A DNA stretch of 34,742 nt, from IMG/VR virus record IMGVR_UViG_3300000930_000030, positions 1-34,742 of that record. One strand, 5' to 3'. This document shows positions 17,160-34,742 of this stretch, one piece after another. The DNA comes from a virus. A program made the position numbers and the translations under genes. The number at the start of each line of letters is the position of its first letter. Position 1 is the stretch's first letter. The notes under the pieces were generated by a model that saw only the letters and a list, made by a program, of their open reading frames with translations, was not told the origin of the DNA and did no database searches.

Positions 17160-17999
17160 ATGGCAAAACCTGGATTAGTACAAATTAACACCACGCAAAC
17201 GTTTCAGAATTGGTTAGATAAAACCAACGAAATGGTTGACTTATTTCAAACATCGGTAGTCACGGCATCAGCATTAGGTGATACTACTGTAGGAGACGCT
17301 GCATTAGCAGGAGATTTTACTGCTGCTAATATTATTGCTGATACTCAAATGAAAACAGATAGTTTGGCGCCGTATTCTCCTGGAGCAGTTATTGGAATTA
17401 ATGGAGAAATAAGTGTAGTTTCAGCAACTGAAAAAGTAGCTGCAACTCTTACTCACGCAGCCGATGGACCAACTTTACGATTTACTGATTCTACAATATC
17501 ATGGGATATTGGATTTAAAGATAACAGTACTAATAACTTTCTTATTAATACAGGAATAGGAGCGTCAAAGTTTGAATTAACTCCAACTGGTACTCTTACT
17601 GTTCCAAACCTAAATGTGACTGAAAGTTTTTCAACAACCGGAGACGTTACTGCAAACAACGTCTTTGCAACGAATGACGTTATAACTAAGTATACCACCT
17701 CTGATGAAAGATTAAAAGATAACATAATCAAGATTGAAAATCCATTAGAAAAAATGGATGAAATAAATGGATACACCTTTAACTATAAAGACAGCGGCGA
17801 AGTTGCAACCGGAGTTATTGCACAAGAAATAGAAAAAGTACTCCCGGGCGTTGTTTACGATGTTCATTCTGACAACGGCGAAACGTATAAAGCCGTTAGG
17901 TATGGTAACATTGTTGGGCTTTTAATTGAAGCAATAAAAGAATTAAAGGTAGAAGTAGAGGATTTGAAAAATGGTAAACTGGTCGACCCTCCCAAATAA
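17160..17999 (+). CDS. Tail fibre protein with C-terminal S74 intramolecular chaperone
   Basis: This is a 279-residue protein. The N-terminus (INTTQTFQNWLDKTNEMVDL) looks like a virion-attachment helix, and residues 40-175 are a beta-rich, Gly/Thr-rich shaft with ...TTGDVTANNVF, which usually precedes the chaperone. Residues about 179-275 are the Peptidase_S74 / endosialidase chaperone domain: TSDERLKDNI, YTFNYKDSG, TGVIAQEIEKVLP, then a C-terminal helix LIEAIKELKVEVEDL. The self-cleavage dyad is S181 and K186, so cleavage before S181 would release a ~99-residue chaperone after trimer folding. The protein is short for a complete fibre, so it may be a tip or spike. Its end overlaps the next gene by 29 bases. 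Confidence 0.88.
   Translation: MAKPGLVQINTTQTFQNWLDKTNEMVDLFQTSVVTASALGDTTVGDAALAGDFTAANIIADTQMKTDSLAPYSPGAVIGINGEISVVSATEKVAATLTHAADGPTLRFTDSTISWDIGFKDNSTNNFLINTGIGASKFELTPTGTLTVPNLNVTESFSTTGDVTANNVFATNDVITKYTTSDERLKDNIIKIENPLEKMDEINGYTFNYKDSGEVATGVIAQEIEKVLPGVVYDVHSDNGETYKAVRYGNIVGLLIEAIKELKVEVEDLKNGKLVDPPK
17957..17962 (+). promoter_or_regulatory. Ribosome binding site (AGAGGA) inside the S74 gene
   Basis: AGAGGA lies eight bases before the ATG at 17971 and inside the preceding fibre gene. It decides the start of the overlapping glycine-rich gene and supports genuine overlap of the two reading frames. Confidence 0.6.
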
Positions 18000-18825
18000 C
18001 GGTACTAACGGCGAAAACTCTTTGTCTCTTCAAGACATCGAAGATGAGTTCGGTGGAGATGGTGACGACATTGAATTATCATTTTATTATAACGGCGGGG
18101 CATATGTTCCTGACGTTGCTTGGAACTATGCAATCCCAAATCTTTATAACAACACCGGTAATTTCAAAGATCCTCTAGACCCACTAAGTTTTAATGCCTT
18201 CTATGGCGCTGTCTGGGGAACTTTTGTTAATTTCACGATGGCCGGTGGCGGTGGAGGCGGCGGCGCCGGTAGTTCTGCCGGACGTGGATCTAACAACATA
18301 GGGAACGGGTCTGCAGGCGGCACTTCTACTGTTTCAATGGACACCAATTCGGGTTTTGGTGGAACCGCGGCTGGTGGCGCTGGCGGTTTACATGGTGACT
18401 CGGCTAATTTTGAAGGAACAGCAGGCGGAGGTAGTATCTTTGGAAACGGCGGTCAGGCTACACCTGAAAACACCAACGGCAGTAATGGCGCGGGCGGTGG
18501 AGCCGCTGGTAGCGGTGGCGGTGGAGACCGAGATAGCGGTAAAGGTGATAATATTGGATATGGCGGTACTGGTGGTACTGGCGGAGCAACGCTTGAAGGC
18601 GGATCACCATTTCCACCTGATATTAATAATAACAGATACAAATATAATAGCGTTATTAACTTTTCAGCTGGTAACGCTGGCGGCGGTGGCTCCGGTAGCT
18701 TTTCTACTGGCGGTAACGGCGTAAGAGGAAGACTTGCTATAACTTACGATGGCGATACATATTATTTAGGCGGGTCTGGTGAGCATGTCGTAGGTTCACT
18801 TGCGGACATTGATGATGTTCCTTAG
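17971..18825 (+). CDS. Glycine-rich tail-fibre adhesin candidate (polyglycine type)
   Basis: This is a 284-residue protein. Residues 1-89 form a compact N-terminal part (DIEDEFGGDGDDIELSFYYN, then FNAFYGAVWGTF). About 91-250 are extremely Gly-rich with runs such as AGGGGGGGAGS, GGAAGSGGGGDRDSG and GGTGGTGG separated by short variable pieces. This resembles the polyglycine type II sandwich tip adhesins gp38 of T2/S16-like phages and the Gly-rich ends of other fibre tips. The final ~35 residues are beta strands (RGRLAITYDGDTYYLGG). In T2-like phages gp38 caps the long tail fibre; here the preceding gene encodes a fibre with a self-cleaving chaperone, which suits a fibre-plus-tip pair. Local GC is raised by GGC/GGT codons. 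Adhesin function is inferred from composition and context, not from a family match. Confidence 0.72.
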   Translation: MVNWSTLPNNGTNGENSLSLQDIEDEFGGDGDDIELSFYYNGGAYVPDVAWNYAIPNLYNNTGNFKDPLDPLSFNAFYGAVWGTFVNFTMAGGGGGGGAGSSAGRGSNNIGNGSAGGTSTVSMDTNSGFGGTAAGGAGGLHGDSANFEGTAGGGSIFGNGGQATPENTNGSNGAGGGAAGSGGGGDRDSGKGDNIGYGGTGGTGGATLEGGSPFPPDINNNRYKYNSVINFSAGNAGGGGSGSFSTGGNGVRGRLAITYDGDTYYLGGSGEHVVGSLADIDDVP

Positions 18826-18857: not shown

Positions 18858-19667
18858 ATGTCAAACACAAGTAATTATTTAAGAAGATGGGTTGAAGATG
18901 TAGTTGGTGACACTACAACTATTATTGCTGACGATGTTGAAGATGCCTGCTATTTATGTATTGTTAGAAAAACTAACGGTGTTGATAAAAAAACATGGGG
19001 CTATGTAACATCTGGATCTAACGTTGATATGTTCCATAAGTTATTAACAGATAATGGTGTTACGTTAACAACCACTATTAGAAATTTTATTAATCAATGC
19101 TCGGCTCCAAAAGGTTCAAGGATTGTTGTTGATACAAAATCGTTTGAAGGTGATAAATCTCAATTGTGCTGGGGTGTTACTTTTAGAAGGCAAGAAGATA
19201 TCTTTTTCTATGATAGGTGGAATTACTCTCCATATATTACAGATGAAAATGTTCCGTTGCGTGGAGGCATTAAATTCGTATACGATTTAACTCAAGATAA
19301 GTTTGTCACTCTTAAAATTTATGAGGGTACAGCGCATGATACCGTTGAAAATCCAAATGTTATTTTTAGTGTTGCCGATGATGACAGCTTAACAGTTGTT
19401 GATGAACAGATGTGTGGACACTTAAGCTTAGAGCACGATCTTGCATCTATAGCCGATGTTCCTGCACCTTACAATTCTCGTTTTGCAGATGAAATACCAA
19501 TTGCAATTGCTTTAAGAGACGAGGCAAAAAATGCGAATGGTACAACGTTAGCATTAAAATTAGCTGAAAGAGGTTCACGAACTCAAGGATATTTCTATTC
19601 TGGATTTTTAAGAAGGAAAATTCATCCTGACGAAAATAAGATACCACTTTTTCCCGCCTTATCATAA
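18858..19667 (+). CDS. Conserved-looking hypothetical protein, function unknown
   Basis: This is a 269-residue protein that I do not recognise. It begins with a short helix (NYLRRWVEDVV), followed by a mixed alpha/beta, aromatic-rich centre (VDTKSFEGDKSQLCWGVTF and RRQEDIFFYDRWNYSPYI) and a charged C-terminus (FLRRKIHPDENKIPLFPALS). It has no signal peptide or membrane helix. A GGAG at 18844-18847 precedes the ATG by 10 bases. It lies between the Gly-rich adhesin candidate and a late promoter, at the end of a transcription block, so a structural or fibre-accessory role is likely. Five Cys residues are scattered with no zinc-finger spacing. Confidence 0.7.
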   Translation: MSNTSNYLRRWVEDVVGDTTTIIADDVEDACYLCIVRKTNGVDKKTWGYVTSGSNVDMFHKLLTDNGVTLTTTIRNFINQCSAPKGSRIVVDTKSFEGDKSQLCWGVTFRRQEDIFFYDRWNYSPYITDENVPLRGGIKFVYDLTQDKFVTLKIYEGTAHDTVENPNVIFSVADDDSLTVVDEQMCGHLSLEHDLASIADVPAPYNSRFADEIPIAIALRDEAKNANGTTLALKLAERGSRTQGYFYSGFLRRKIHPDENKIPLFPALS

Positions 19668-19742: not shown

Positions 19743-22700
19743 ATGTCAAAGATTTCAGAATTAGGTCCGATTACAGGCGCCAATACTAGAAGCGAAGACC
19801 TTTTTGTTATTGTTAACTTAGTACAAGGCGATGACGGTACAAAGAACATTAGTCGTTATGAACTTGTAGAGGCAATCCAATATGAAGTGTTTACAAGGAT
19901 AAACATTACTGGTGGTACAATTTCAGGTACTATTCAGACTAACAACATTATGAACGAAAACGTTATGAATGATAACGAGTTCAATGATGGTACCATTAAC
20001 CAATCAACATTATTTGACGTTACGATAATTGGCGCAACCGCCAACGCAATGATAATTACCGCGTCTGAATTTAATGACAGCACTGGTAATAACGACGTAT
20101 TTACATATTCTACAATTGATAATTCGCAAATCTTAAATAGTACAGCGAACAACATAACTATGACTGCGTCTGCAATTACAGGTTCTGATTTCTCAGACGG
20201 AACTGGTAACAACAACGTCTTTACTAACACAACAGTAGAAAACATTACTATTGAAGGCGGTACTGCCAATAACCTAACAATGACTGCAATCACAATAGAT
20301 AATGTTGTGATAACCGACGCGTTGATTTCAAACAGTGATATCCGCGATACAGATTTAGATAATGTTGTTATTACAAATTCACAATATGCAAATGGTACAG
20401 TTTATGATACTGTAGTATCTAACTCAACTATTGAAAATTCAAATATGATAAACGGTACAGGCAGTAACATTGTCTTTACCGATCTTACAATTTCTAATTC
20501 TGCAATTTCAACATCAGACTTTAGCGATGGCACTGGTAATAATAACATCTTTACCAATACAACTGTTGACCAAAGTTTAATTCAAAACTCAGTGATTGCC
20601 AACACCACATTTGAAGGCGCGCTGAACGATGTTGATATTACTAATGCAAGGATTTCAAGTACAACTTCTGATGGTCTTGGCCAAGTTAAGTCAACGATTG
20701 AAGATTCTATTGTTTCAAACTCAACTATTGAAGACTCAGATCTCGTTGACTTTGATATGGATCTCCGCAAAAAGTTTCAGCCTGAAATGGATGAAGACTC
20801 TTATTTTGCTATTAAAAACGCTAAGACTGGCGAAACTGAGCAAATCACATATCGTCAGTATTACGATGAACTTTCCAAATCAACAGAAAACGCATTAAAA
20901 GTATATGCTTCTGTTAGCGGTGATGATAACAACCCAGGAACGATTTTACAGCCAGTAAGAAACCTTAAAAGAGCTGCAGACATTGCTCTTGAAAAGGCAG
21001 GCGGATCATACGATCGTAATGATATTAATAACGCGGTTCACATTTCAGTTGGACCTGGTGTTTACTTTGTTGACGAACCAATTTCACTTCCTGATGATTG
21101 TGCTATGACTGCAGAAGCTGGTCAGTACGCAACTATTATTCGTAAGAAACCAGGTTGGGAAAGAACAAACGGTATTCAAGTTGGATCAGGTTGTTATGTT
21201 CAAGGTTTTGCATACATGAACTTTGAGGTTGACAACTTTGACTATCCTGAAGGCGGTTTTGCAATTGCATATCGCCCTGGTGCAAAACTGAGAAGATCTC
21301 CATATATTCGAGATAGTTCACAACTTTCAAACTTTAACCGTCTTGATGTTGAACCGCCTTTACAGCCATTTAACTCAAAAGGTACTATTGCTGACTTAGG
21401 TTTACAACTTATAATGGAACCAGGGCATAGTGCTGAAGCATTGTTTGCTGAAGACGATCAAGTTGAATTTTCAAACGGTGCAACAGGATTTGTTTCTTGG
21501 ACAACTGATATTAATTCAGAGCGCGAACTTTATGTTCGTAACATTAAACCTTGGGGTTCTGTCAAAGCTGGCATGACCTTTATGACACAGCAAGGTGCAA
21601 CAGGTACAATCCAAACAGTTGGTATTGATGACTTCCCTAACAGATTAGTTGGCCGTGGTGGCGGTTGTTTGCTCGCAGACAGAAGAGTTGTGGATCCTGA
21701 CTCATTATATATTTACGTTCTTTGCTTCGGCTTTACTCCTCGTACACAAAACGGTATGGGTTATGTCGCTAGAGACGGCGCTGGTGTTAACGGGATTGGT
21801 TCATTGTCAATCTTTGTTCGTACTGCGTTCTATGCATTAAACGGCGGCCAGATGACCTTGAACAACTCAGGTACTCAGTTTGGCGATATCTCCATGAGAT
21901 CAAAAGGTACAACTAATGTTGTTCAGCCATCTTCAACAAGTGCTACTTTACTCGGTAACACTGTGTTTGCTCAAGCGATTACTGATAATAAAGATGCAAT
22001 TATTGAAGACATGGTAAGTTACTTGAATGCTAATACTGCAAACGGTGGTCTTGGTTATCAAGGATATGACTCAATGAAGTGCCGTAGGGATACTGGCATT
22101 ATTATTGATAACGTAGGATTTGATGTTGCTCTTGATACAAACTATTGGGGTCGTCTGAACGGAATTACATATCAGTCGCCAATTTCGTATGTGGTTGTTG
22201 GCGAACAGCTTACCGAAACTGCAGGAGCAATTGAGCATCTTCAAGGAGATATTAACTATGCATTTAGAAATGCTGATGCAAGTGTTAATACTCGAGTCGA
22301 CAGATCGCTTGACGAAACAATTAACATTCTTAACAACGGTGTAGAAAATCAAAGCGATCTTGTCTTTGCTGATACCGGTGTTGAAGCAAGAACAAATGCT
22401 CGTGAATTAATTCAAGATAACCGTGAACTTATTATTAAAGGAATGGTAGATTGGATTGATAATAACGATGAATTCTTTGCTTATGATAGTAATAAATGTC
22501 GTAGAGATATTCAAGAATATATTCTTCCAGCAACAAAGTGGGATATGGTTCTTGACACAAATTATAACTCAGTTACAGCAGGTAATGCGTATTACTTTAA
22601 ACAGGCAAAAGTTTCAATTGAAAACCAAAGAGATGAAACTGTTGGCTCGTTTAAATATTTAAGAGACATAACTGATACATTAATTGATGGAAATACTGCA

Positions 22701-25700
22701 TTAGGTTCTACAAGACTTTACGATAAATTTAATCAAGTCATTGACATTCTTGATAACAAAGGTGATAAGTTTACTCCAACAAATGCATCTTATGATGGTA
22801 CAACTGGAGAGTTTATAATTACAATTGCGAACCACGGTTTGACCGTCGGTCGTTATGTTACTCTCATGGATAACAGCTTTAAGTTTACTTGTGAAGCTGA
22901 TGGAAACACAACTGTTAAAATTCACCCAACAAAAGCTGACCCAGCATATCGCGCGTTGCTGCCAATTACCGCAGTGACAGCTAACACAATTACAATTAAT
23001 GTTGGCGACGGCGGTGGATATAAAGGCGCACATACATTTGTGAGCGCAGAAAAAAGTTCAGTATCTGTTTTAGGTACTTCAATTACGTTTAGTGATGATG
23101 CTTCAATTTCAGAAGACAAGAGAAACGCTCGTAAGTTGTTACAAGCCAACAGAGATTACATCCAAGACTATATGATGACTTGGGCTGAAAACGAATGGTA
23201 CTTCTACGATAGTAAAAAATGCCAGCGCGACACAAGCGAGTATATCTTACCAGCAGTTAAAAGAGATATGGTAACAGGTTCAACGTATAACGCAATCCAA
23301 GCTGGTTTTGCATATCGTACAGGAACTGGTAAATTCCTTATCGACAACCAATTGTCTGAAACTATCGGAGCGTTCTCTCACTTGAGAGACGAAGTGTTGG
23401 AAGATCTTACAGATCCGGTTGCAGAAAAACATGCAACTGACTCATTCAATACTCTTATTGATATTATGCAAAACTCAGGTAGAAAATATACTATCACGGA
23501 TGCATCATACGATCCTGTAACCGGTGTTCAAGTATTAACAGTTGGTGATCATGACTTTGCAACTGGCGATGAATTCTTGATGGAAACCGGTGCTGTTACA
23601 TTTAGTTGTGTTAACACTGCAACTAACGACACGGTTGAAATTGCACATCCAAGAACTACAGATCCATGGCATAAAACACCAATTACAATTACAGGTATAA
23701 CTGATACCACTATTACTGCAAACGTCGGTAATGCAGGTGGATACACTGGAGCCCATACATTTGTAAGAGGATTACTCAACGGTGTACAAAAACAAGAACC
23801 ACTGAATAACGCATTTACTCCAATTGACTCATCATATGATCCATTAACTGGTATTACAACGTTTGACTTTGGGGCAAGCCACGATTTCATAATCGGTGAT
23901 ACAATTATGATTGACCCAATGTCAGTAACATATAGTTGTGATAATGGAAATGGCGTTGAAGAAGCAACATATCCAAGACTTACAGATCCTGCATACAACG
24001 TTGCATTAACAATTACTGCAGTATCTGCAAACACAATTACAGTCAACACTGGTGATGGAAATGGTTACACAGGAGCTCATACTTTTGTAGGTTCTAAACC
24101 AAATGCAATTAAGAAAGCATCGTTCTATACTGGATCGTTTACTCCAATTGATGCAACATACAGCGCAAACACTGGACAGCTTGACGTTAAAATCGGTCAA
24201 CACAGTTTACCTGTTGGCAGATGGATTAAAATCAAAGGAGAAGGAATTACCTTTACCTGCGATCATGATAATAATTTAACTGAACATGCGTATCCAAGAA
24301 GAACTGATCCAGCGTTTAAACAGATTGTTAGAATTACAGACGTATCTGACGAATGGATTACAGTTAACGTAGGAAACGGTGGAGCAGGTTATCAGTATTC
24401 TTCAAACACCGCTCATACCTTTGTATCATCTCTGCCAAATGCAATTGATACAAACGTTTCATACTTTACTGACGCGGCTAAGATTACAGATTGGCTTACA
24501 CCAACAACTGCAACATACGACCCAGTAACAGGCGATATGGTTGCAACTGTTGCAAACCACGGCTTAACAACAGATGACCATGTTGAAATGAAACCACTTG
24601 GTATGACATTTAGTTGTGACCCAGGAACTGGAGTTGCAAACGACTCCAACCCAAGAATTGGTGAACCAAACTACGGTAAGCCACTCGCGGTAACTGCAAC
24701 TACAACAAATACATTTACCTTTAACGTAGGTGGTGCAGGTACTTATACTGGTGCCCATACATTTGTAAGTGCTGAAGCCGGCGCAATTATGAAAGTTAGC
24801 TCAACAACCGAAGGCAGAAACGCCGCGGACCAATTGAGAGCAAACAAAGTATTCTTACAAAACGAAATTGGCGCATACATGGAAGCCAATTACTTTATAT
24901 ACAATAAAGATAAGTGTATGAGAGATACAGGCTATATCTTGAACGCAGTAGCAAGAGATATCGCAACTGGATCAAATGTCAACTCAATTTATGTAGGACA
25001 AGGATATCGTATTGGTACAGTAGGTGCTAATAACGTTATCAATAACCAGCTTACAGAAACTGTTGGCGCGATCACATGGCTCAAAAATAAAATTGCAACC
25101 GAAGTCTTAACAGATGCAACTGCAATTGCTCGCTCAAACGCCGCTTTTGATGATATCATTGATATTATGCAAAACGGTAACGCAAACTCAGATGCAATTG
25201 ATTTTGGCGTACAAGCAACTGAGCTTGACGCATATCACGCAAGAGTTTCGTTACAAACAAATAAACAGTTTATCCAAGAAGAAGTTATTGGTTGGCTTGC
25301 AACAAACTACCCTGGATTTGTTTACGCATACGATGCTTGTAAGCGTGACTTAGGAGTATTCATTGATACTGTATCATACGATATTCAACACGGCGGTAAT
25401 GCAGCTACAGTAAATAACACAAGACTGTATTTTGAAAATGCAATGCCAGTTTTGGCCGATGATGAAATTGTTCCAACTTCAGAAGCATATAACTTTATTG
25501 CTAATTTGGTAGGTCAAGTTATTCGTGGCGAAAATGTTATTGAGTTAACATCTAACACGGCACAAGTACTAACAGCTGAAGCATCCTATACACCAACTGA
25601 CGCAACATATAATCCTGTAACTGGAATTATGGAAGTCACAATTGGTTCCCACACATTTGCTGAAGGTGACAGACTTTCAATTGACCCAGCAGGAATTACA

Positions 25701-28700
25701 TTCAGTTGCGCATTCAACGGCGGCGGTAATGACTCGCATCCAAATGCAAATGATCCAAATTATAAAGGAACATTTATCGTAACTGCAAATACTGCGACTA
25801 CTGTAACAGTGAATGCAGGTACGGCTGGAACAAATACAGATGCACATACATTTGTAAGCGCAACAGCTGATGCTGTAAGAGCTGCAAATATGCCTGAAGC
25901 TTATACACCAACTGATGTATTCTACGATCATATAACAGGTCGTATGACTATGACACTTGGAAACAGACATAGGTTTGCTGCCGGCGATTGGTTGATCTTT
26001 GACGAAGGCGCAATCACATTGTCTTGTAAAGATGCAAACGGTATTGTGTTCAACCTAGCGCATCCAAGACAGACAGACCCAGTATGGAATACACCTGTAT
26101 ATATTGACGAAGTTACCGCAGATACTATAACTTGTAACGTTGGCGCTGCAGGAGTTGATAAAGTACATACATTCGTAAGTGCTACAACAAATGGTGTAAG
26201 AAGGTCTATTCAACCTGCTGTGGCAAATAGAGCAGTTAAAATGTTTGAAGATATCGGTCAAACATTGCGTAACAATGATGGCGAAGTGGTTGCTGTTACT
26301 GAAGCAATCTTTACACTGCCAGCAACATATGGTATTGCGTTGATTGCTGATGCTGATAGAGTTTGGGGAAATAAAGCAAAATATCAAACTGAAATTATTG
26401 ACCACATTACCGAAACATATAACGGCCTTGGTTACGATGTATCTAAATGTCCACGTGACGCAGGATATATTGTTGACGCGGTTGCAGAAGATATGGAATA
26501 TGGTGGAAATGCTGCAACAGCATGGGCTGCCGCTTACTATTTTGAGAACGCAATCAACGTCTTACCTCTGTATCAAAGAGCACCAACTAAGGCGGCGTTT
26601 GAACATCTAGCAAACGTTGTAGAGGACATTATCCAAGAAACTGCAGTGACACCAACAGCTGGAAACGTGACGGTACAAAACACCTCAGGGACTGCTGCTA
26701 GCGCTGCTACTGCATTAACTGCTAAGAACCTTGTAAATGTTATCTCTTCAATCTCTGATGATAATTCACCAGTCAATGTTCCTGCTGTAGTTGATGCTCC
26801 ATTAATGGAACCAAGCAGAACATTCGCAAGAAAAGCATTGCAGAAAAACCGCGAGTTTATTCAAGAAGAAGTTATTAACTTTATTGACGAGCAGTACTTT
26901 ACAATCAACGAAGGTAAGTGTGCAAGAGATGTTGGATTTATTATCGACGCAGTTAAGAGAGATGTTCAGACAGGTTCTGATTATAACTCTAAGTACAACG
27001 GTAAAGCTTATCGTGTAGGTAACCCACTTGCAGAAAAAGTAATTGAAGAACAACTTGCAGAAACTATTGAGTCTCTGAAATATGCTCAACGTGATATTGA
27101 AGCTCAATTAACAGGTACAGCACTGTCTCGTACCACCGCAGCGTTTAACAATGTTTATGATGCAATGACTAATGATTATACCGCTGACGGAACCAACTAC
27201 GAATATGGTGACTCTTGGTATACATTAGGCTCAGTATCTACAGAGCAAGGTATGCAGTTTAATAGAACCTTCCTTCAAGAAGAAGCAATTGCATGGATCA
27301 CACAAGAATATCCATCTTTAGTATACGATCAAGCAAAATGTCGTAGAGACACTGGGTTTATTGTTGACGCATTGACTTGGGACTTGATGAACGGTAGTAA
27401 CACTGCAACTCGTAACGTGGCGAAACTATATTTTGAAAACGGAGTACAAGTTGGTCTTCCTGCTTCTCAAAGAGCTGAAGCCGCAGCGTGGTATACTCAG
27501 TTAGCAACTTTGGTTGAAGCAATCCTTCTTAAACAAACTGTAACGCCAACAAGCGGTAACTTAGAAAATGTTTCACAATCGTTCGGAACAGTTACTGCTG
27601 CGGTTGCACAAGAAGCACAAGACTTAGTTACAATCATTGCTCGTGCAGTTGCAGAAAATACTTTAATCAATATGCCAGCTGAAGTTGAGCCGCGCGGTTT
27701 AACAGGAGCAGGCGCAGCAGGTTACATTGTTGATGTAGCAATCTTTGATACTCGCAAGCCAATTATTCAAGCTGGTGTTGTTAACTATCTCAAAGAAAAC
27801 TTCAACTATCTTCAGTACGATCAAGACAAATGTCGCCGAGATACTGGATTTATTGTTGATGGTATTGCTCACGATATTCAGTACGGTGGTAACTCAGCTA
27901 CGGTCGGTAACGCAGGTTTGTATTTTGCCAATGCGGTATCAATCTTGCCAATGAAACAAAGAGATGCAACTAAACTCGCGTTTGAACATATGGCTGAAGT
28001 AGTTAGAAGAGTTGTTAGAAACGAAGAAGTTGATATTAAAACCGGCGAAGAATTTACTCCAACCGACGTTGTTTATGACGGGGTTGCTGGTACAATGGTA
28101 ATTACTCTTGGCGCAGGCCATGATCTTAAGGTTAACGATTATATCCTATTTGCTCCAGAAAGCATTGTATTAGATTGCGGTGCTTCGGTTGAAATCTCTC
28201 ATCCACGAGTTCAAGATCCTGCATATCAAACTCCTTGGAGAATTTCTGCAAGAACAGCAACAACTATTACACTGTCTGACCTAAAAGCTAATTATGCTGG
28301 AGCTCATACATTTGTAAGTGCATCACTCAATGCAATTGCTAAAGTTATCGGTAATACTGAAACTCAATGGAAATCATATACACCTGCAAGAAGATCTATT
28401 GCAAATGAAGCAAAAGCACTCGCAACAATCATTGCAGATATTTCAGATGATGCAACACCAGTTAACTTGCCGCAAATGATCCAACCAAAAATGGATTGGG
28501 TACCTGCAAGATTGGTTGCAGAAAAAGAACTAATTGAGAACAACACCGTTGAATTGTCTACCGATATGATTAACTATATCTCAAAAACATATAACGGTAT
28601 CAGTTATGCTAAGGAAAAATGTCGTAGAGATGTTGGAGGTCTTGTTGATGCAATTTCACACGATGTTCAATATGCAACAAACTACGCAACAATAAGAGCA

Positions 28701-30362
28701 TCAGAACTATACTTTGTAAACGGTCTGAGCATCTTACCATTTGACCAAAGACAACAAACCGCAGATTTCTATGCTGAAATGGGATTGTTGGTACAAGGTA
28801 TCGCAACTGCGAACACAGCCACTGTACCAGGAATGGCAACTCCAGTCGCAGGCGGAACCGCGGTTGAAGGTGAATGGGCTCAAGATATGATTACTCATAT
28901 TGAAGAAGTAATTCGCCGCGATACTTTAGATGCAATGCCTGAGCTTATTGAGCCTGATACAACTTGGGTTGATAACAGTTTAGTTTGGGCAGCTGATTTG
29001 ATTGAAGAAAATCTTGACGAGTTAGCTGACGACGTTACAACTTGGATCAATACAAATTACGATGTTCTTGATTACGATAAAGCAAAATGTTATAGAGATG
29101 GCAATTATTTGCTTGATGCAATTAGCCACGATCTTAACTACGGCGGTAACCTTGCATCGAGATGGAACGCTGATTTCTACTATTGGAATAACACTGCTAG
29201 ACTTCCTGAGTCGCAAAGATTGCCAACAGCATCGGCATACAAGCAATTAGCTGAAATTTGTAGACAGGTTGTTCTAGGGGATTACCCAGGTCAAGTTATC
29301 AAAGGCGATGCTTCAACTGTTGAAGAATCAAAACATGCATACGAATTAGGTTTAATATTCTTTAACATCTTGTTTGAAGGCGGACCTAAGAGAGGGCTAC
29401 CACCTCTTGAATATCCTGACTTTGACTACGCAGATGTTGATACATATTCGTTTGCAAGACGTGTTCTGATTAATCGTAGAAAGAAACTGCAGTATTCAGT
29501 ACAAGGATTTATTGGATCAGAATACAAGTTCTATGATATTAATCTTACACGCCGTGATGCAGGTAACTTGCTCACATCCTTGAAACAAGATTTTGAATAT
29601 GTAAGTAACACAATTAATCCATCTACACAAATACTATCAACAGTGGAAGGTTCACAACAGTCAGTAAGAACATTTGCTGCATCCCTCTTTGATGGAAATG
29701 CAATGCACGTGTTCCCTGTATTTAATCCAACATCTGGAAGACGTGGCCTAACTTTCATAAATACAGTTCAGAATACTGGAGATTTGCCTGCGACTGATAA
29801 GATAAATAATGCGTATATAGTATCAGCTGGTAATTACGCTGCTGGCAACCGGTACGATGGAGATATATATTATTGGGACGGATCGGTATGGGTAAACGAC
29901 GGAGCAAACAACGTGGATCTATTATATAGCTTCTATAAGGCATTTGAGAGAATGAATTCATACATTAAAACTAACCTATCGCCAAACGCAGCTCATAATG
30001 CAATGCTTGATGGATTGTTTAATGATTGCTTGATTGCAACAACATTAAGACCAGCAAACTTAACGTTTGGATCTCTCGTCGAGTCAATTGCGCACCAGTT
30101 TAACGGTGCATCTGCCGGTGTTAACAGAACAGCATTGCCGCTGAACTTTAGAAACCTTGGTGCTGCAATTTCAGCATCAGCTTCGGTTATATCTGAAGAC
30201 GGTGGTAGAACTCGTTGGTCAGGAGCTGACGAATTGAATAACCAATACTTTGCAAGAGGTCTTAGAATTAACGGTAGAACAGGTCGAATTGAAGGCCGGC
30301 CGTTTACATCATCAGTAAGAAAACTTGCAAGAAGAGCATCACAAAGTAGGGCAAGCATCTAA
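19743..30362 (+). CDS. Giant modular virion protein (3539 aa), probable long fibre
   Basis: Residues 1-45 form an attachment-like start (MSKISELGPITGANTRSEDL). About 50-330 are Asn/Thr/Ile-rich degenerate repeats (SDFSDGTGNNNVFTNTTV) likely to form a beta-helix or similar solenoid. About 386-700 look like a pectin-lyase-type right-handed beta helix (VSGDDNNPGT, PVRNLKRAADIALE, VHISVGPGVYFVDEPI). From about 760 to 3300 there are twelve helical modules, eleven with K/A-C-x-R-D followed by a hydrophobic helix and D-(I/M/V)-x-x-G. They are interrupted by eight ~90-residue beta modules that end in HTFV. About 3400-3539 is a distinct C-terminus ending in a basic tail (RKLARRASQSRASI). Similar very large proteins with these beta modules occur in marine T4-like phages. 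No enzymatic triad is evident. The role is inferred to be a long tail fibre or adsorption protein. The stop overlaps the next start (TAATG). Confidence 0.82.
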   Translation: MSKISELGPITGANTRSEDLFVIVNLVQGDDGTKNISRYELVEAIQYEVFTRINITGGTISGTIQTNNIMNENVMNDNEFNDGTINQSTLFDVTIIGATANAMIITASEFNDSTGNNDVFTYSTIDNSQILNSTANNITMTASAITGSDFSDGTGNNNVFTNTTVENITIEGGTANNLTMTAITIDNVVITDALISNSDIRDTDLDNVVITNSQYANGTVYDTVVSNSTIENSNMINGTGSNIVFTDLTISNSAISTSDFSDGTGNNNIFTNTTVDQSLIQNSVIANTTFEGALNDVDITNARISSTTSDGLGQVKSTIEDSIVSNSTIEDSDLVDFDMDLRKKFQPEMDEDSYFAIKNAKTGETEQITYRQYYDELSKSTENALKVYASVSGDDNNPGTILQPVRNLKRAADIALEKAGGSYDRNDINNAVHISVGPGVYFVDEPISLPDDCAMTAEAGQYATIIRKKPGWERTNGIQVGSGCYVQGFAYMNFEVDNFDYPEGGFAIAYRPGAKLRRSPYIRDSSQLSNFNRLDVEPPLQPFNSKGTIADLGLQLIMEPGHSAEALFAEDDQVEFSNGATGFVSWTTDINSERELYVRNIKPWGSVKAGMTFMTQQGATGTIQTVGIDDFPNRLVGRGGGCLLADRRVVDPDSLYIYVLCFGFTPRTQNGMGYVARDGAGVNGIGSLSIFVRTAFYALNGGQMTLNNSGTQFGDISMRSKGTTNVVQPSSTSATLLGNTVFAQAITDNKDAIIEDMVSYLNANTANGGLGYQGYDSMKCRRDTGIIIDNVGFDVALDTNYWGRLNGITYQSPISYVVVGEQLTETAGAIEHLQGDINYAFRNADASVNTRVDRSLDETINILNNGVENQSDLVFADTGVEARTNARELIQDNRELIIKGMVDWIDNNDEFFAYDSNKCRRDIQEYILPATKWDMVLDTNYNSVTAGNAYYFKQAKVSIENQRDETVGSFKYLRDITDTLIDGNTALGSTRLYDKFNQVIDILDNKGDKFTPTNASYDGTTGEFIITIANHGLTVGRYVTLMDNSFKFTCEADGNTTVKIHPTKADPAYRALLPITAVTANTITINVGDGGGYKGAHTFVSAEKSSVSVLGTSITFSDDASISEDKRNARKLLQANRDYIQDYMMTWAENEWYFYDSKKCQRDTSEYILPAVKRDMVTGSTYNAIQAGFAYRTGTGKFLIDNQLSETIGAFSHLRDEVLEDLTDPVAEKHATDSFNTLIDIMQNSGRKYTITDASYDPVTGVQVLTVGDHDFATGDEFLMETGAVTFSCVNTATNDTVEIAHPRTTDPWHKTPITITGITDTTITANVGNAGGYTGAHTFVRGLLNGVQKQEPLNNAFTPIDSSYDPLTGITTFDFGASHDFIIGDTIMIDPMSVTYSCDNGNGVEEATYPRLTDPAYNVALTITAVSANTITVNTGDGNGYTGAHTFVGSKPNAIKKASFYTGSFTPIDATYSANTGQLDVKIGQHSLPVGRWIKIKGEGITFTCDHDNNLTEHAYPRRTDPAFKQIVRITDVSDEWITVNVGNGGAGYQYSSNTAHTFVSSLPNAIDTNVSYFTDAAKITDWLTPTTATYDPVTGDMVATVANHGLTTDDHVEMKPLGMTFSCDPGTGVANDSNPRIGEPNYGKPLAVTATTTNTFTFNVGGAGTYTGAHTFVSAEAGAIMKVSSTTEGRNAADQLRANKVFLQNEIGAYMEANYFIYNKDKCMRDTGYILNAVARDIATGSNVNSIYVGQGYRIGTVGANNVINNQLTETVGAITWLKNKIATEVLTDATAIARSNAAFDDIIDIMQNGNANSDAIDFGVQATELDAYHARVSLQTNKQFIQEEVIGWLATNYPGFVYAYDACKRDLGVFIDTVSYDIQHGGNAATVNNTRLYFENAMPVLADDEIVPTSEAYNFIANLVGQVIRGENVIELTSNTAQVLTAEASYTPTDATYNPVTGIMEVTIGSHTFAEGDRLSIDPAGITFSCAFNGGGNDSHPNANDPNYKGTFIVTANTATTVTVNAGTAGTNTDAHTFVSATADAVRAANMPEAYTPTDVFYDHITGRMTMTLGNRHRFAAGDWLIFDEGAITLSCKDANGIVFNLAHPRQTDPVWNTPVYIDEVTADTITCNVGAAGVDKVHTFVSATTNGVRRSIQPAVANRAVKMFEDIGQTLRNNDGEVVAVTEAIFTLPATYGIALIADADRVWGNKAKYQTEIIDHITETYNGLGYDVSKCPRDAGYIVDAVAEDMEYGGNAATAWAAAYYFENAINVLPLYQRAPTKAAFEHLANVVEDIIQETAVTPTAGNVTVQNTSGTAASAATALTAKNLVNVISSISDDNSPVNVPAVVDAPLMEPSRTFARKALQKNREFIQEEVINFIDEQYFTINEGKCARDVGFIIDAVKRDVQTGSDYNSKYNGKAYRVGNPLAEKVIEEQLAETIESLKYAQRDIEAQLTGTALSRTTAAFNNVYDAMTNDYTADGTNYEYGDSWYTLGSVSTEQGMQFNRTFLQEEAIAWITQEYPSLVYDQAKCRRDTGFIVDALTWDLMNGSNTATRNVAKLYFENGVQVGLPASQRAEAAAWYTQLATLVEAILLKQTVTPTSGNLENVSQSFGTVTAAVAQEAQDLVTIIARAVAENTLINMPAEVEPRGLTGAGAAGYIVDVAIFDTRKPIIQAGVVNYLKENFNYLQYDQDKCRRDTGFIVDGIAHDIQYGGNSATVGNAGLYFANAVSILPMKQRDATKLAFEHMAEVVRRVVRNEEVDIKTGEEFTPTDVVYDGVAGTMVITLGAGHDLKVNDYILFAPESIVLDCGASVEISHPRVQDPAYQTPWRISARTATTITLSDLKANYAGAHTFVSASLNAIAKVIGNTETQWKSYTPARRSIANEAKALATIIADISDDATPVNLPQMIQPKMDWVPARLVAEKELIENNTVELSTDMINYISKTYNGISYAKEKCRRDVGGLVDAISHDVQYATNYATIRASELYFVNGLSILPFDQRQQTADFYAEMGLLVQGIATANTATVPGMATPVAGGTAVEGEWAQDMITHIEEVIRRDTLDAMPELIEPDTTWVDNSLVWAADLIEENLDELADDVTTWINTNYDVLDYDKAKCYRDGNYLLDAISHDLNYGGNLASRWNADFYYWNNTARLPESQRLPTASAYKQLAEICRQVVLGDYPGQVIKGDASTVEESKHAYELGLIFFNILFEGGPKRGLPPLEYPDFDYADVDTYSFARRVLINRRKKLQYSVQGFIGSEYKFYDINLTRRDAGNLLTSLKQDFEYVSNTINPSTQILSTVEGSQQSVRTFAASLFDGNAMHVFPVFNPTSGRRGLTFINTVQNTGDLPATDKINNAYIVSAGNYAAGNRYDGDIYYWDGSVWVNDGANNVDLLYSFYKAFERMNSYIKTNLSPNAAHNAMLDGLFNDCLIATTLRPANLTFGSLVESIAHQFNGASAGVNRTALPLNFRNLGAAISASASVISEDGGRTRWSGADELNNQYFARGLRINGRTGRIEGRPFTSSVRKLARRASQSRASI
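20064..20570 (+). repeat. Degenerate solenoid repeats in the giant protein N-terminus
   Basis: There are four related units with core (D/N)GTGxNxxFTxxT, beginning near 20064, 20184, 20442 and 20514. Copies at 20184 and 20514 share SDFSDGTGNNN followed by FTNTTV. The intervening strands repeat N-S-T-I/N-x-x-I patterns. This is protein-level repetition with diverged codons, typical of beta-solenoid shafts. Confidence 0.7.
20898..21850 (+). other. Pectin-lyase-like beta-helix region of the giant protein
   Basis: From residue 386 the sequence reads KVYASVSGDDNNPGT, then a helix (RNLKRAADIALEKAGG) and short strands (VHISVGPGVYFVDEPISLP, ATIIRKKPG). This is the usual start of a right-handed beta helix in phage tailspikes and DUF1565-like proteins. 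No lyase active-site cluster is identifiable, so binding rather than cleavage is the cautious call. Confidence 0.6.
22080..29570 (+). repeat. Twelve-copy helical module array (C-x-R-D) in the giant protein
   Basis: The Cys codons of the C-x-R-D signature begin at 22080, 22497, 23220, 24915, 25338, 26448, 26919, 27339, 27831, 28620 and 29088 (residues 780, 919, 1160, 1725, 1866, 2236, 2393, 2533, 2697, 2960, 3116). A twelfth copy near 29550 (LTRRDAGNLL) lacks the Cys. Where no beta module intervenes, the period is 139-164 residues. Each copy is preceded by a helix of the type (F/L)IQEE(V/A)IxWI and followed by (I/V)D(A/T)V...D(I/M/V). Confidence 0.85.
22770..28322 (+). repeat. Eight-copy beta module array (..YDPVTG..HTFV) in the giant protein
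   Basis: Modules begin at 22770, 23487, 23814, 24138, 24495, 25587, 25902 and 28053 (residues 1010, 1249, 1358, 1466, 1585, 1949, 2054, 2771). Each runs about 90-100 residues: (Y/F)TPTxAxYDPVTG, a GDH or NHG turn, a (F/Y/L)xC strand with a single Cys, HPRxTDPxY, (I/V)TVNxG, and a terminal (A/V)HTFV. All eight carry the one Cys. They lie only between helical modules, in groups of 1, 4, 2 and 1. Confidence 0.88.
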
Positions 30363-30784
30363 TGGCATACACAACAATTACAACATCACAGGCGCCCGAC
30401 GCAAAACCGGTCGCTTCCAATTTAGAAGTAACTACAAATTGGCAAGTCATCATTGAGGTACCAGACTACGAAGTTCCAGAACTTGTATTTGGTGGATCTA
30501 CTACAGTTGAAACTGGGGTAGGCGAAGTTATTTCCCCTTTAATGTTATGTAATTATACAGCCAATACGGTTTATGTAGATTTACAATCATTTAGATTTAC
30601 AACCGGGGATTATTTTTATATTTTAAGAAACTTTCCAGTACCTGGATTTGATACTGTACCAATTCCAATCAACGGCCAATTCTTTAAATCAGGCGATCGT
30701 TTAGAAGTTAAGTGTGACACTAACTTAGCTCTACACTCTACGTTGTCCTTTACATTAGGTCAATCGGAGGAGGATGACGTATAA
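30362..30784 (+). CDS. Small beta-rich virion-associated protein, function unknown
   Basis: This is a 140-residue protein predicted to be mostly beta strand: TTNWQVIIEVPDYEVPELVF, VISPLMLCNYTANTVYVDLQ, YFYILRNFPVPGFDTVPIPI and a final LHSTLSFTLGQ with an acidic tail. It has no signal peptide or catalytic motif. Its ATG overlaps the stop of the giant gene by one base (TAATG), and its own stop overlaps the collagen-like gene the same way. Stoichiometric, coupled translation with the two fibre genes suggests a connector, cap or trimerisation partner between long fibres. The family is not recognised with certainty; similar proteins occur in marine T4-like phage fibre regions. Confidence 0.72.
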   Translation: MAYTTITTSQAPDAKPVASNLEVTTNWQVIIEVPDYEVPELVFGGSTTVETGVGEVISPLMLCNYTANTVYVDLQSFRFTTGDYFYILRNFPVPGFDTVPIPINGQFFKSGDRLEVKCDTNLALHSTLSFTLGQSEEDDV

Positions 30785-33700
30785 TGGCTTTTAATTCTCT
30801 CGCAGGCGGAAAAATAATAGGACAGGGTCGGCCTTTACCTACTCCTATTGCCTTAGATCCAGCACCGTTTAAAGGTGCATTAGTTTATGGCGATGATGGC
30901 GTCGTTTATGTTTCAAACGGAACAGCGTGGGTTGACGTTGGATCCGGTGCTCAAGGTACAATCGGTATACAAGGTAACGACGGTATCCAAGGGATCCAAG
31001 GTACGTATGGTCCAGGGTTTACAATCCTAGGATCGGTTCCTGACGTTGATGCGGGAGGAAATCCACAAACAACACTTACTGCTGCGTTTCCATCACCAAA
31101 TATCGGTGAAGGCGTTATTGATGAAGCTGACGATGAGCTGTGGATTTGGGATGGCACAAACTGGGTTAACATTGGTACGTTCCGCGGCGTTCAAGGTATC
31201 CAAGGTAGTATAGGTCCACAAGGCGCGCAAGGTACAATTGGTGAAGAAGGTATTCAAGGTTCACGCGGTGATAGAGGTGTGCAAGGCGTTCAAGGATTGC
31301 AAGGTACACAAGGTCTCCAAGGATTTAGAGGTTTCCAAGGTACGCAAGGTATTCAGGGTGTTCAAGGCCCGCAAGCATTCCAAGGTGTACAAGGTATCCA
31401 AGGTTTTGTTGGTAACCAAGGTGTTCAAGGACCACAGGCGTTTCAAGGTGTACAAGGTATCCAAGGATTTGTAGGTCTTCAAGGCGACACCGGTGATTTT
31501 GGTGGATTGACTTTTGATTACACATATGATACTACAACAACAGATGCAGACCCAGGAACTGGTATTATCAGATTTAATAATGTTGCACTGAACAGTGTTT
31601 CATTGGAAATGTATATTGACGACGAAGATGATGCAGCCATTAATGTTATGGATGCTCTCTTAGGAGAATATGCAGGAATAGGTGGAGCCGTTAAAGGTTA
31701 CTTTAAAGTTATAAACGGCGCTGACGTTACTAAATATACTACTTATCGTATTGACTCAATCACAGATGCCACCGGGTATTGGAGATTGGGCATTACATAT
31801 TTGTTTGGTGAAACAAGCTACGCAAATGGAGCCGACTTACGAATAACATTTACTCGCAACGGTGACCAAGGTGTCCAAGGTATTCAAGGTCCACAAGCAT
31901 TCCAAGGTGTACAGGGTATGCAAGGTCCTCAGGCCTTTCAGGGTATCCAAGGTATTCAAGGTTTCACTGGTTCTCAAGGAGCTCAAGGTTTACAAGGCTT
32001 TATCGGTATTGATGGCGGTTTCTCGTTTGACTTTAGCTTTAATGCTTCAACAACACCAAGTACGGATCCTGGAGTTAACAGTTGGAAACTTAACAACTCT
32101 AACCCAACAACCGCAACAATATTAACGATTGATGATATTCCTTTAGATCAGTTTACAACAGAAATTGACGCGTTTTATGATTTCATTGACGGTCAGGCTG
32201 CAACTCCTAAAGGCTACTTGGTAATTAAAAATAGACCTACAGGTGCTGGCGGTATCGGCGGCCACCATTTTGTAATGTATGAGATTACAGATTGGACATG
32301 GGACAGTGGAGCTAAAAACTGGGGTTACTTCAACGTAGTTTATATTGAAGGTAATGTTACTGATTGGCAAACTGTTGCGTCAACTCACGGGACAAAAACA
32401 CATATTTCATTCGTACCGGCTGGACCAATTGGTGTTCAAGGTACACAGGGTATTCAAGGCGACTTTGGCCCACAAGGTATACAAGGTATTATAGGTCAAA
32501 CTGGTACACAGGGTGTTCAAGGTATTCAAGGTGACTTTGGTCCGCAAGGTATTCAAGGATTTAGAGGTGATACTGGATTACAAGGTGCACAAGGCATCCA
32601 AGGTCTACAAGGCGTGCAAGGACCGCAAGGGGTTCAAGGAGTACAAGGCGTCCAAGGTACGCAAGGTGTTCAAGGTATCCAAGGTTACACCGGTGTTTCT
32701 GGTGGAATTACATTTACTTATAATTACAACACGACTTCAAATATCGCAACAGACCCAGGTTCGCAAATATTCAGATTGAATAATAATACTTATTCTTCAG
32801 TAACTGAAATCTTTGTTGATGCTGAAGCAGGTCCGGGTCCAGTTGACTTATCAAGTCTTTACAACAGTTATGACGCTGTCACAGGACCTTATAAAGCAAT
32901 TGTTAGAATTGTAGATCCAGCAAACACAGACGAATTTTTACTCTATAAAGTTAAAGATGTTACAGATAACACTGGATGGTTTACACTTTCGGTTGAATAT
33001 GTTACTCATAACGGTATGTCATATACTGATGGCCAAGCTACTTTATGGACATTCAGCGAAGTTGGCGCTCAAGGTGTTCAAGGTCCACAGGCATTCCAAG
33101 GTGTGCAAGGTATCCAAGGTGAAATCTTACAAGGTGTTCAAGGTTTCACTGGTGACACAGGACTTCAAGGCGTTCAAGGTATACAAGGTGACTTTGGACC
33201 AGCTGGTGAATTTGGTGGCATGACATTCTCTTATGTGTTTGACACTGACAATACTGCTACTGACTTTACAGGATTTGGTAAAGTTAAATTTAATAACAGC
33301 AACTTAGCACTTGCAACAGCTATGTATGTCGATGACCGCGATATTAACTTTGTTGATATACAAGCGTTCCTTAGATCTATGGATGAACCAACATCTGCAG
33401 TTAAAGGGTATGTTAGAATTATTGACTCATTCACAACATCAGACTATGCTGCATTTGAAATCACTGAAATAACAGAAGCTGGTGGATATTTCCAATTTGA
33501 TGTATCATTCTCAGTTGCTTCACAAACTTCATGGAATGCCGCGGAGCCAGTTAAACTAACATTCTCAAGAACTGGTGATGCAGGTACGGATGGCGCACAA
33601 GGCGTTCAAGGTATCCAAGGTGATGCAGGTACAGGTGGTATTCAAGGTGTACAAGGTAACCAAGGTATAACTGGGTTTGGATTTCAAGGTATCCAAGGTA

Positions 33701-34742
33701 TACAAGGTGACGCTGGTAACGACGGATTTGGATTTACTGGTACACAAGGTACACAGGGCGTTCAAGGTATACAAGGTGATGCTGGAACCGACGGTAACGA
33801 TGGCGGCGAAGGTGTCCAAGGTGTTCAAGGTATACAGGGTAACGACGGAACTGACGGTTTACAAGGTGCTGATGGTATCCAAGGCCTTGATGGTAGTGAT
33901 GGCTTTGGAGGAGTTGGTGTTCAAGGTAACCAGGGTATCCAAGGTATTCAAGGCGAAGGTCCTCAGGGTGTTCAGGGTATTCAAGGCGCGTTAGGTTTTG
34001 GTTCACAGGGTGTCCAAGGTATACAAGGTTTCACTGGTGCTCAAGGTATTGCCGCTGAAGAAGGAGGAGCTGGTGCACAAGGTACTGATGGTGGACAAGG
34101 TGTTCAAGGTTTCCAAGGTGTAGGTATCCAAGGTATTCAAGGTATCCAGGGTGAAAGCGGCGACGCAATCCAAGGTGTGCAAGGTAACCAAGGCTTTACA
34201 GGTTCTGGGTCGTCAGGTATACAAGGTAACGATGGTATTCAAGGTATTCAAGGTAATAGTGGTGATCTTGGAAACGAAGGACCGCAAGGTACGCAAGGTT
34301 TTGTTGGTAACCAAGGTATCCAAGGTACTGATGGAACTGGGAACGTTGGCCCACAAGGTATTCAGGGTCAGCAAGGACCACAAGGTGTCCAAGGTTTCTC
34401 AGGTGTTGTAGGTGGAGCTGGTCCGCAAGGTATTCAAGGGGATCAGGGTGTCCAAGGTTTCACTGGCGCAAACGGTACTGGTGCTAACGGTGTTCAAGGT
34501 GTTCAAGGTATTCAAGGTGACTTTGGTCCTCAAGGTATTCAAGGCCTTGTAGGAACTGGTAACTCAGGTATTCAAGGTTCGCAAGGTGTACAAGGTTTCA
34601 CTGGCCAAATTGGTCCTCAAGGTGTTCAAGGTCTACAAGGTACAGCTGAAGCTTCTGAAATAATTACAAATAATCTTCATGTTGCTGACGTATCGTTGCA
34701 ACAGGCAGCTATGTTCCCTGCAATGGTTGAAGGTGGCGGTGG
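30784..34742 (+). CDS. Collagen-like fibre protein (3' end outside window)
   Basis: This open frame has 1319 complete codons and no stop before the right edge. The start MAFNSLAGGKIIGQG is a TAATG overlap with the upstream gene, with GGAGGAGG at 30766-30773. Residues 30-57 (FKGALVYGDDGVVYVSNGTA) and 118-135 (ELWIWDGTNWVNIG) are the small 'label' modules common in phage fibres. Collagen-like G-x-y stretches fill about 30955-31017, 31189-31497, 31864-32016, 32431-32697, 33067-33213 and 33577-34650, with Gln dominant in the y position (GIQGIQG, GVQGPQG) and little Pro. Four ~120-residue beta domains separate them. The last visible segment (ASEIITNNLHVADVSLQQAA) leaves the triple helix. Trimeric collagen-like stalks are known in phage fibres; the receptor-binding end lies beyond the window. 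Confidence 0.9.
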   Translation, partial: MAFNSLAGGKIIGQGRPLPTPIALDPAPFKGALVYGDDGVVYVSNGTAWVDVGSGAQGTIGIQGNDGIQGIQGTYGPGFTILGSVPDVDAGGNPQTTLTAAFPSPNIGEGVIDEADDELWIWDGTNWVNIGTFRGVQGIQGSIGPQGAQGTIGEEGIQGSRGDRGVQGVQGLQGTQGLQGFRGFQGTQGIQGVQGPQAFQGVQGIQGFVGNQGVQGPQAFQGVQGIQGFVGLQGDTGDFGGLTFDYTYDTTTTDADPGTGIIRFNNVALNSVSLEMYIDDEDDAAINVMDALLGEYAGIGGAVKGYFKVINGADVTKYTTYRIDSITDATGYWRLGITYLFGETSYANGADLRITFTRNGDQGVQGIQGPQAFQGVQGMQGPQAFQGIQGIQGFTGSQGAQGLQGFIGIDGGFSFDFSFNASTTPSTDPGVNSWKLNNSNPTTATILTIDDIPLDQFTTEIDAFYDFIDGQAATPKGYLVIKNRPTGAGGIGGHHFVMYEITDWTWDSGAKNWGYFNVVYIEGNVTDWQTVASTHGTKTHISFVPAGPIGVQGTQGIQGDFGPQGIQGIIGQTGTQGVQGIQGDFGPQGIQGFRGDTGLQGAQGIQGLQGVQGPQGVQGVQGVQGTQGVQGIQGYTGVSGGITFTYNYNTTSNIATDPGSQIFRLNNNTYSSVTEIFVDAEAGPGPVDLSSLYNSYDAVTGPYKAIVRIVDPANTDEFLLYKVKDVTDNTGWFTLSVEYVTHNGMSYTDGQATLWTFSEVGAQGVQGPQAFQGVQGIQGEILQGVQGFTGDTGLQGVQGIQGDFGPAGEFGGMTFSYVFDTDNTATDFTGFGKVKFNNSNLALATAMYVDDRDINFVDIQAFLRSMDEPTSAVKGYVRIIDSFTTSDYAAFEITEITEAGGYFQFDVSFSVASQTSWNAAEPVKLTFSRTGDAGTDGAQGVQGIQGDAGTGGIQGVQGNQGITGFGFQGIQGIQGDAGNDGFGFTGTQGTQGVQGIQGDAGTDGNDGGEGVQGVQGIQGNDGTDGLQGADGIQGLDGSDGFGGVGVQGNQGIQGIQGEGPQGVQGIQGALGFGSQGVQGIQGFTGAQGIAAEEGGAGAQGTDGGQGVQGFQGVGIQGIQGIQGESGDAIQGVQGNQGFTGSGSSGIQGNDGIQGIQGNSGDLGNEGPQGTQGFVGNQGIQGTDGTGNVGPQGIQGQQGPQGVQGFSGVVGGAGPQGIQGDQGVQGFTGANGTGANGVQGVQGIQGDFGPQGIQGLVGTGNSGIQGSQGVQGFTGQIGPQGVQGLQGTAEASEIITNNLHVADVSLQQAAMFPAMVEGGG
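31189..34650 (+). repeat. Gly-x-Gln collagen-like tracts
   Basis: Long in-frame GGN-NNN-CAA/CAG triplet runs encode G-(I/V/L/P)-Q. They are broken only by four globular domains and rare triplet defects. Codons for Gly, Ile and Val vary, so the tract is conserved as protein rather than as a simple DNA repeat. The longest run is 33577-34650 (about 358 residues). Confidence 0.9.
31498..33576 (+). repeat. Four homologous beta domains interrupting the collagen fibre
   Basis: Domains occupy about 31498-31863, 32017-32430, 32698-33066 and 33214-33576. All begin GG(L/F/I/M)(T/S)F with alternating aromatics, then Thr/Asn/Asp-rich sequence, usually DPG, and an (R/K)(F/L)NN strand, a Y/F-(V/I)-D acidic turn, a K-(A/G) strand (KGYFKVI, KGYVRII) and an (I/V)T(D/E) strand. 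They resemble one another in sequence and length, so they arose by duplication and probably form trimeric knobs along the stalk. Confidence 0.8.

Follow-up and report, generated by a model that had tools for sequence, protein, structure and literature searches.

A giant fibre protein of a T4-like marine phage with predicted phycobiliprotein-fold units and insertable beta-barrels

A virus record of IMG/VR (IMGVR_UViG_3300000930_000030), analysed here as one stretch of 34,742 nt (the window), carries a giant fibre gene, a single uninterrupted open reading frame (ORF) with helical and beta repeats. What are these repeats, how were they put together and what might they do on the virion? A sequence-only reading of the locus had described twelve helical units, each marked by a C-x-R-D motif, with a basal period of 139-164 residues, and had proposed that larger spacings reflect beta domains inserted in the linkers and multiplied there, rather than two separate arrays.

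Layout of the giant fibre gene and its surroundings

We located exact C-x-R-D motifs at residues 780, 919, 1160, 1725, 1866, 2236, 2393, 2533, 2697, 2960 and 3116, which accounts for 11 of the twelve units claimed; the twelfth (residue 3268, nt 29544) reads T-R-R-D, lacks the Cys and is degenerate. A helical-unit HMM returned twelve matches (E 1e-28 to 1e-48), the twelfth of only 15.6 bits and with a wider model. The successive motifs are 139, 241, 565, 141, 370, 157, 140, 164, 263 and 156 residues apart, confirming the basal period, which spreads over 139-164 residues because the units fall in two classes, namely A (residues 780, 919, 1160, 1725 and 2393) and B (residues 1866, 2236, 2533, 2697, 2960 and 3116). 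As anticipated by the sequence-only reading, the beta-module HMM revealed exactly eight modules (E 1e-42 to 1e-48), distributed as 1, 4, 2 and 1 in the gaps of 241, 565, 370 and 263 residues, and none elsewhere. With the base distance taken from the matching class, the excess spacing amounts to 101, 106, 106.5 and 106 residues per module, respectively. The counting rule, that is, gap excess equals inserted beta modules, holds in this protein. The region preceding the units (residues 1-740) is also found in the orthologs; it yielded a weak Pfam Pentapeptide_4 match, and none by tblastn among annotated phages.

Table 1. Features of the giant fibre gene (nucleotide positions in the window)
Feature	Position	Strand	Remarks
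Giant fibre gene, 3539 aa	19743..30362	+	Single open frame
N-terminal region, aa 1-740	19743..21962	+	Pentapeptide-like repeats (aa 105-178), then parallel beta-helix-like stretch (by eye only)
Unit A1, CRRD at 22080	21963..22337	+	HMM 136 bits
Unit A2, CRRD at 22497	22389..22757	+	HMM 139 bits; predicted phycobiliprotein fold, Z 15.7
Beta module, slot 2	22761..23069	+	HMM 126 bits
Unit A3, CQRD at 23220	23112..23474	+	HMM 154 bits
Beta module, slot 3 first	23478..23792	+	HMM 117 bits
Beta module, slot 3 second	23811..24119	+	HMM 115 bits
Beta module, slot 3 third	24135..24452	+	HMM 109 bits
Beta module, slot 3 fourth	24489..24794	+	HMM 121 bits
Unit A4, CMRD at 24915	24810..25175	+	HMM 154 bits; sole Pfam match Phycobilisome, 17.2 bits, E 0.0054, below cut-off
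Unit B5 helices 1-5, CKRD at 25338	25233..25571	+	HMM 129 bits
Beta module, slot 5 first	25584..25886	+	HMM 117 bits; by alignment, empty-site homologue of L006 nested stack
Beta module, slot 5 second	25893..26207	+	HMM 116 bits
Unit B5 helix 6 (H), after inserted modules	26214..26279	+	Aligned to L006 model helix 549-568
Unit B6, CPRD at 26448	26349..26687	+	HMM 144 bits
Unit A7, CARD at 26919	26811..27173	+	HMM 148 bits
Unit B8, CRRD at 27339	27234..27575	+	HMM 132 bits
Unit B9 helices 1-5, CRRD at 27831	27741..28067	+	HMM 136 bits
Beta module, slot 9	28047..28343	+	HMM 110 bits; slot 9 empty in L056, L014
Unit B9 helix 6 (H)	28383..28451	+	Conserved flank in filled/empty alignment
Unit B10, CRRD at 28620	28503..28829	+	HMM 129 bits; slot 10 empty in window, filled in L006
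Unit B11, CYRD at 29088	28971..29297	+	HMM 136 bits
Degenerate twelfth unit, TRRD at 29544	29460..29618	+	HMM 15.6 bits

The contig also carries T4-like baseplate genes (gp25, gp6 and a gp8-like gene) and fibre genes, and the PHROGs labels of the giant fibre's relatives vary among tail fibre, short tail fibre, and head and packaging. Additional structural genes were noticed in the window: a gp7-like baseplate protein (3160-5760), which has short stretches in common with PHROG 701 and other cyanophage virion structural families; a short fibre protein (17160-17999) that has a Peptidase_S74 domain (intramolecular chaperone of endosialidase) close to its C-terminus; three neighbours of the fibre gene (17971-18825, 18858-19667 and 30362-30784), for which no convincing family match was obtained; and the next large gene (30784-34740, 1319+ aa), which runs off the contig end and contains about eight repeats matching collagen-like/tail fibre PHROGs. 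The 140-aa gene directly after the fibre gene could encode a fibre chaperone or adaptor. As for lineage, the major capsid protein on the contig of one ortholog (L006) matches those of Sinorhizobium phage phiM12 (67%) and Methylophilales phage Melnitz (66%), and gp6 that of phiM12 (38.7%); a DNA-level search of the capsid flank retrieved no match. Judging from these protein sequences, the window lineage may have a non-cyanobacterial host.

Beta modules as insertions in a conserved helical chain

A scan of viral contigs uncovered 79 related loci, including 30 full or nearly full ORFs (16 distinct) that have the helical order AAAABBABBB(B) in common and differ, slot by slot, in their number of beta modules. 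In the 16 distinct marine-virus orthologs, 160 gaps fitted a slot constant plus 101.1 aa times the beta number (R2 0.9991, residual SD 4.3 aa), with split beta matches counted once. Throughout this set, slot 2 always contains one module and slot 3 three to five, slot 5 holds one, two or four, slots 6, 9 and 10 hold none or one, and slots 1, 4, 7 and 8 are empty in all proteins. Alignment of filled with empty versions of slots 6, 9 and 10 further revealed sequence conservation on both sides of the insert. The common backbone order, the varying beta number and these empty and filled sites identify the beta modules as insertions in a conserved helical chain. Two separate arrays are ruled out, since every beta module lies in one of few slots and the spacing is explained by beta number. 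The helical backbone is not absolutely fixed: six loci (L020, L030, L031, L047, L049 and L066) contain an extra B unit (AAAABBBABBBB), which bears a beta module in four of them, and the chain itself can thus also grow in this clade.

While the insertion of beta domains was borne out, their recent multiplication was not. The copies in the window are 31-45% identical, and in a beta-module tree (110 rows, 106 columns; many forks unresolved) modules cluster by slot and position, next to those of other phages, which rules out recent tandem amplification in the window.

Predicted folds, insertion sites and self-nesting

For structural analysis we relied on single-chain AlphaFold models of residues 865-1352 of the window protein (27 sequences, mean pLDDT 68) and residues 1866-2666 of L006 (17 sequences, mean pLDDT 73), with pTM values of 0.47 and 0.39, respectively, and shallow alignments. 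The A2 model from the window superimposed on phycobiliproteins with Z 15.7 and rmsd 2.1-2.4 Å over 120-123 residues, and all 50 matches listed were phycobiliproteins or proteins derived from or modelled on them. Likewise, the L006 B5 model matched phycoerythrin and phycocyanin beta chains (Z 15.8, rmsd 2.0-2.3 over 138 residues) along a model range from 1 to 567 that spans the inserted beta cluster, which would therefore sit in the G-H loop of the phycobiliprotein fold. In these predicted models the structural matches mostly start near phycobiliprotein residue 24-35, and the N-terminal X/Y helices were not detected in the phage units. Foldseek alone found no significant PDB match for the window model (E above 1e-3), its long matches being misleading, with large rmsd.

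Profile comparisons were in line with this assignment. Searching the PDB with the unit profile gave phycocyanins as best, albeit weak, matches (E 0.06-1), in which YDKDKCRRDTGYIL aligned with IGKAKCARDIGYYL at Cys84. Alignment of the units to 150 cyanobacterial phycobiliproteins with hhalign scored 37.5 for class A (E 2e-5) and 36.1 for class B (E 3e-5), against maxima of 19.7 and 23.7, respectively, among 100 column shuffles each. A unit of Synechococcus phage S-WAM2 exceeded the cut-off of Pfam Phycobilisome, the only family matched (28.2 versus 22.2 bits, E 2.1e-6), and those of the window stay below it, A4 being the best. Helical units were present in all nine cyanophage genomes tested, most of which had been picked because they matched; four T4-like phages, infecting Sinorhizobium, Caulobacter, Stenotrophomonas and Methylophilales, had none. 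It could be argued that the units are merely a convergent helical bundle with a coincidental likeness to phycobiliproteins, given that the window's own units score under the Pfam cut-off and that, as the structure-comparison tool warns, helical bundles reach Z values of about 13-14 by chance. However, structure, profile-profile scores far above the shuffles and the above-cut-off Pfam match in S-WAM2 agree in register, making this explanation highly improbable and already largely refuted. The unit is homologous to phycobiliproteins within the phage family, and its predicted structure is the phycobiliprotein (globin) fold.

The phage protein thus has in common with phycocyanin, phycoerythrin and allophycocyanin (PF00502) the predicted globin fold with helices A-H, the C-x-R-D register and profile-detectable homology, but differs from them in having twelve units per chain, in being a viral structural protein and in the beta-barrels predicted in the G-H loop. 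Among predicted structures of viral proteins, the matches were mainly giant structural proteins of Synechococcus phages that go by names such as tail protein, long tail fibre or baseplate wedge initiator. Giant cyanomyovirus structural proteins (PHROGs 701, 5342, 4527 and 18802; for example in S-WAM2, S-RIM32 and P-HM2) contain the same helical units and beta modules; they are, however, not orthologous along their length, their units are fewer and more scattered, and their beta modules are often nested. We found no description of their composition in searchable papers. A frame of 4464 aa (L120, IMGVR_UViG_3300037804_000252) contains at least twelve near-consensus phycobiliprotein-like units and two beta stacks of depth 4.

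The AlphaFold models display six helices per helical unit and place the insertions in two different settings. In type-A slots the beta module is predicted to occupy a genuine linker, after helix 6 of one unit and before helix 1 of the following one, whereas in type-B slots it would separate helix 5 (G) from helix 6 (H) of the same unit, rendering the type-B unit a discontinuous domain. The proposal that beta modules occupy linkers therefore fits the A-type slots but not the B-type ones, where the models put them in a G-H loop within the unit. None was predicted inside a helix, and no helix is interrupted.

The beta module was predicted to resemble an endosialidase beta-barrel. For a well-modelled copy, the best structural neighbour is that of phi92 endosialidase (4hiz), with a middling Z of 8.0 and rmsd 2.1 over 82 residues at 21% identity, and further neighbours are the EndoNF/K1F endosialidase barrel and the small barrel of the ubiquitin-activating enzyme UBA1. 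By sequence, the beta profile matched nothing convincing in the PDB, and a search of 16 records for Pfam End_beta_barrel (PF12195), a family that also rings in unrelated control genomes, produced weak matches below cut-off, the best of 15.8 versus 35 bits and outside the beta-module genes. Fibronectin-type folds were discarded, since their Foldseek matches had an rmsd above 18 and VIA-align did not support them. The likeness to phage endosialidases (K1F, phi92) thus lies in the predicted barrel fold and in its use as an inserted domain; unlike these enzymes, the phage-fibre beta module comes without propeller or catalytic domain, occurs in tandem and self-nested copies, and scores below the Pfam cut-off.

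In the clade of L006, the beta module is interrupted by copies of the beta module. The first slot-5 module of the window (residues 1940-2046) represents the empty-site homologue, with TVTVNAGTAGTNT and DAHTFVSATADAV contiguous, and in its L006 counterpart TVTLDAAASGPN is followed by about 209 additional residues, that is, two modules, one inside the other, before the sequence resumes with PQTVHTFVSVTADAV. Nesting also occurs in isolated cyanophages, where it reaches, judged by eye, four levels in S-RIM32 and Sf-CH1b and involves two loops of one beta module in P-RSM4. Run on 143 ORFs, many of them from near relatives, a segment parser detected nesting of two or more levels in 81; four or more levels were reached in 36 and five or more in 6. 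The outer module resumed at exactly the next segment after the inner one ended in 270 of 332 cases, when about 107 would be expected, according to the parser table, were interruption and resumption points independent. Truncated copies or HMM noise as the origin of split beta matches are ruled out, the missing end being found after the inner module. As read from these sequences, the beta module is inserted into itself in relatives, at least five deep.

Several loci exhibit related architectures. Three huge ORFs (L158, L160 and L165; IMGVR_UViG_3300020470_000113, 3300020411_002770 and 3300020457_000045), of up to 8645 aa in the whole record, are largely nested beta; the parser counted 28 modules and at least five closed levels in them, and a greedy parse many more. 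L114 and L121 show a higher-order repeat, with about four tandem copies of a nested stack of four modules. In P-RSM4 (L085, aa 3532-3800, frame from nt 1) the terminal loop of beta is apparently interrupted, by eye, by a LamG-like (jellyroll) stretch, hinting at other domains using the same beta loop.

A candidate fibre function and its alternatives

Starting from the demonstrated units, their counts, the fixed slots, the empty and filled sites, the unit homology and the nesting, and from the two predicted folds and the T4-like baseplate neighbourhood, we infer that the gene encodes a very long virion fibre of a T4-like marine myovirus, with a phycobiliprotein-fold shaft and insertable, probably glycan-binding barrels; we give this reading a probability of roughly two in three. 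The shaft would be formed by twelve tandem phycobiliprotein-fold (globin-fold) domains, with endosialidase-type barrels inserted at a few permitted loops: two type-A units would take them in the linker that follows helix H, and type-B units in their G-H hairpin loop. From there, the barrels would project sideways and most likely serve as low-affinity glycan-binding (adhesion) modules, many of them acting together on host glycans. Their number could change without breaking the shaft, and copy number might tune avidity or reach. Because the barrel appears to tolerate insertion in its own loops, side arms could be enlarged in related phages by recursive nesting as well as by tandem copies.

Alternatively, the beta modules could simply be spacers without any binding role, determining how long or stiff the fibre is, as would suit a copy number that varies freely among orthologs and modules in which no ligand site was identified. 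We regard this as unlikely, though less so than the other alternatives: modules in B slots would hang in a hairpin loop off the chain and so would not lengthen the shaft, and the predicted fold resembles a barrel that, in endosialidases, binds polysialic acid. A different alternative concerns the helical units. In 133 A and 183 B units selected by HMM score, the Cys, Arg and Asp never vary; no other columns of the unit are as conserved, and the three residues are in register with Cys84, Arg86 and Asp87 of the bilin site. In phycobiliproteins, Cys84 is the point of thioether attachment, and Arg86 and Asp87 are chromophore contacts. Each C-x-R-D might accordingly hold a linear tetrapyrrole and the fibre be pigmented, which could serve to sense light, to protect against it or to present a host-like surface; loading of the bilin would, in cyanophages, fall to the phage CpeT lyase and bilin reductases. 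Indeed, of the nine tested cyanophages that have units, eight encode CpeT and two a bilin reductase, both are absent from the four T4-like phages devoid of units, and the reason why such phages carry pebS/pcyA has been called unclear for cyanophages (PMC2984593).

True bilin binding is nevertheless quite improbable on the whole. The invariant residues may be kept for structural reasons, no CpeT match was obtained in S-ShM2 although it has units, and the capsid protein of the window lineage resembles those of phages whose hosts are expected to lack phycobilins; a non-cyanobacterial host would speak against bilin binding in this lineage. The co-occurrence of CpeT and reductases with the units is no proof of it, because host and gene content are confounded and the window lineage looks non-cyanobacterial. 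Neither CpeT nor psbA was found in 14 partial ortholog contigs. Slightly more doubtful still is the broader proposal that tail fibres of marine T4-like phages display working bilin-binding domains, so that CpeT and the reductases would partly pigment the virion, not the host antenna.

Fibre proteins with inserted domains are already known, and recursive self-insertion has a precedent in the cyanobacterial RNA polymerase, where hybrid motifs of rpoC2 SI3 are likewise one domain family repeatedly inserted into itself, with six levels reported (PMC13114784). In the viral fibres, unlike in that unrelated protein, recursion occurs at several loops, is mixed with tandem copies and varies between close relatives. 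Our search, which left most subscription journals and preprints outside, retrieved no paper on phycobiliprotein-like domains in phage fibres or on nested domain insertion in phages, and viral fibres made of phycobiliprotein-like arrays are, as far as could be found, undescribed.

Under the long-fibre reading proposed here, some of the largest proteins of abundant marine phages that still lack annotation are made of phycobiliprotein-like units and so gain a predicted fold and an ancestry. It also provides a construction rule, in which a conserved shaft, barrels at permitted loops and recursion of the barrel would let surface modules change with the shaft untouched. Prochlorococcus has no ordinary phycobilisomes, yet its phages carry bilin reductases and lyases (PMC2984593). 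The phage units keep the pigment-attachment motif of light-harvesting proteins almost without exception, and such a candidate viral substrate opens to testing the long-standing question why phages, including those of Prochlorococcus, carry these enzymes.
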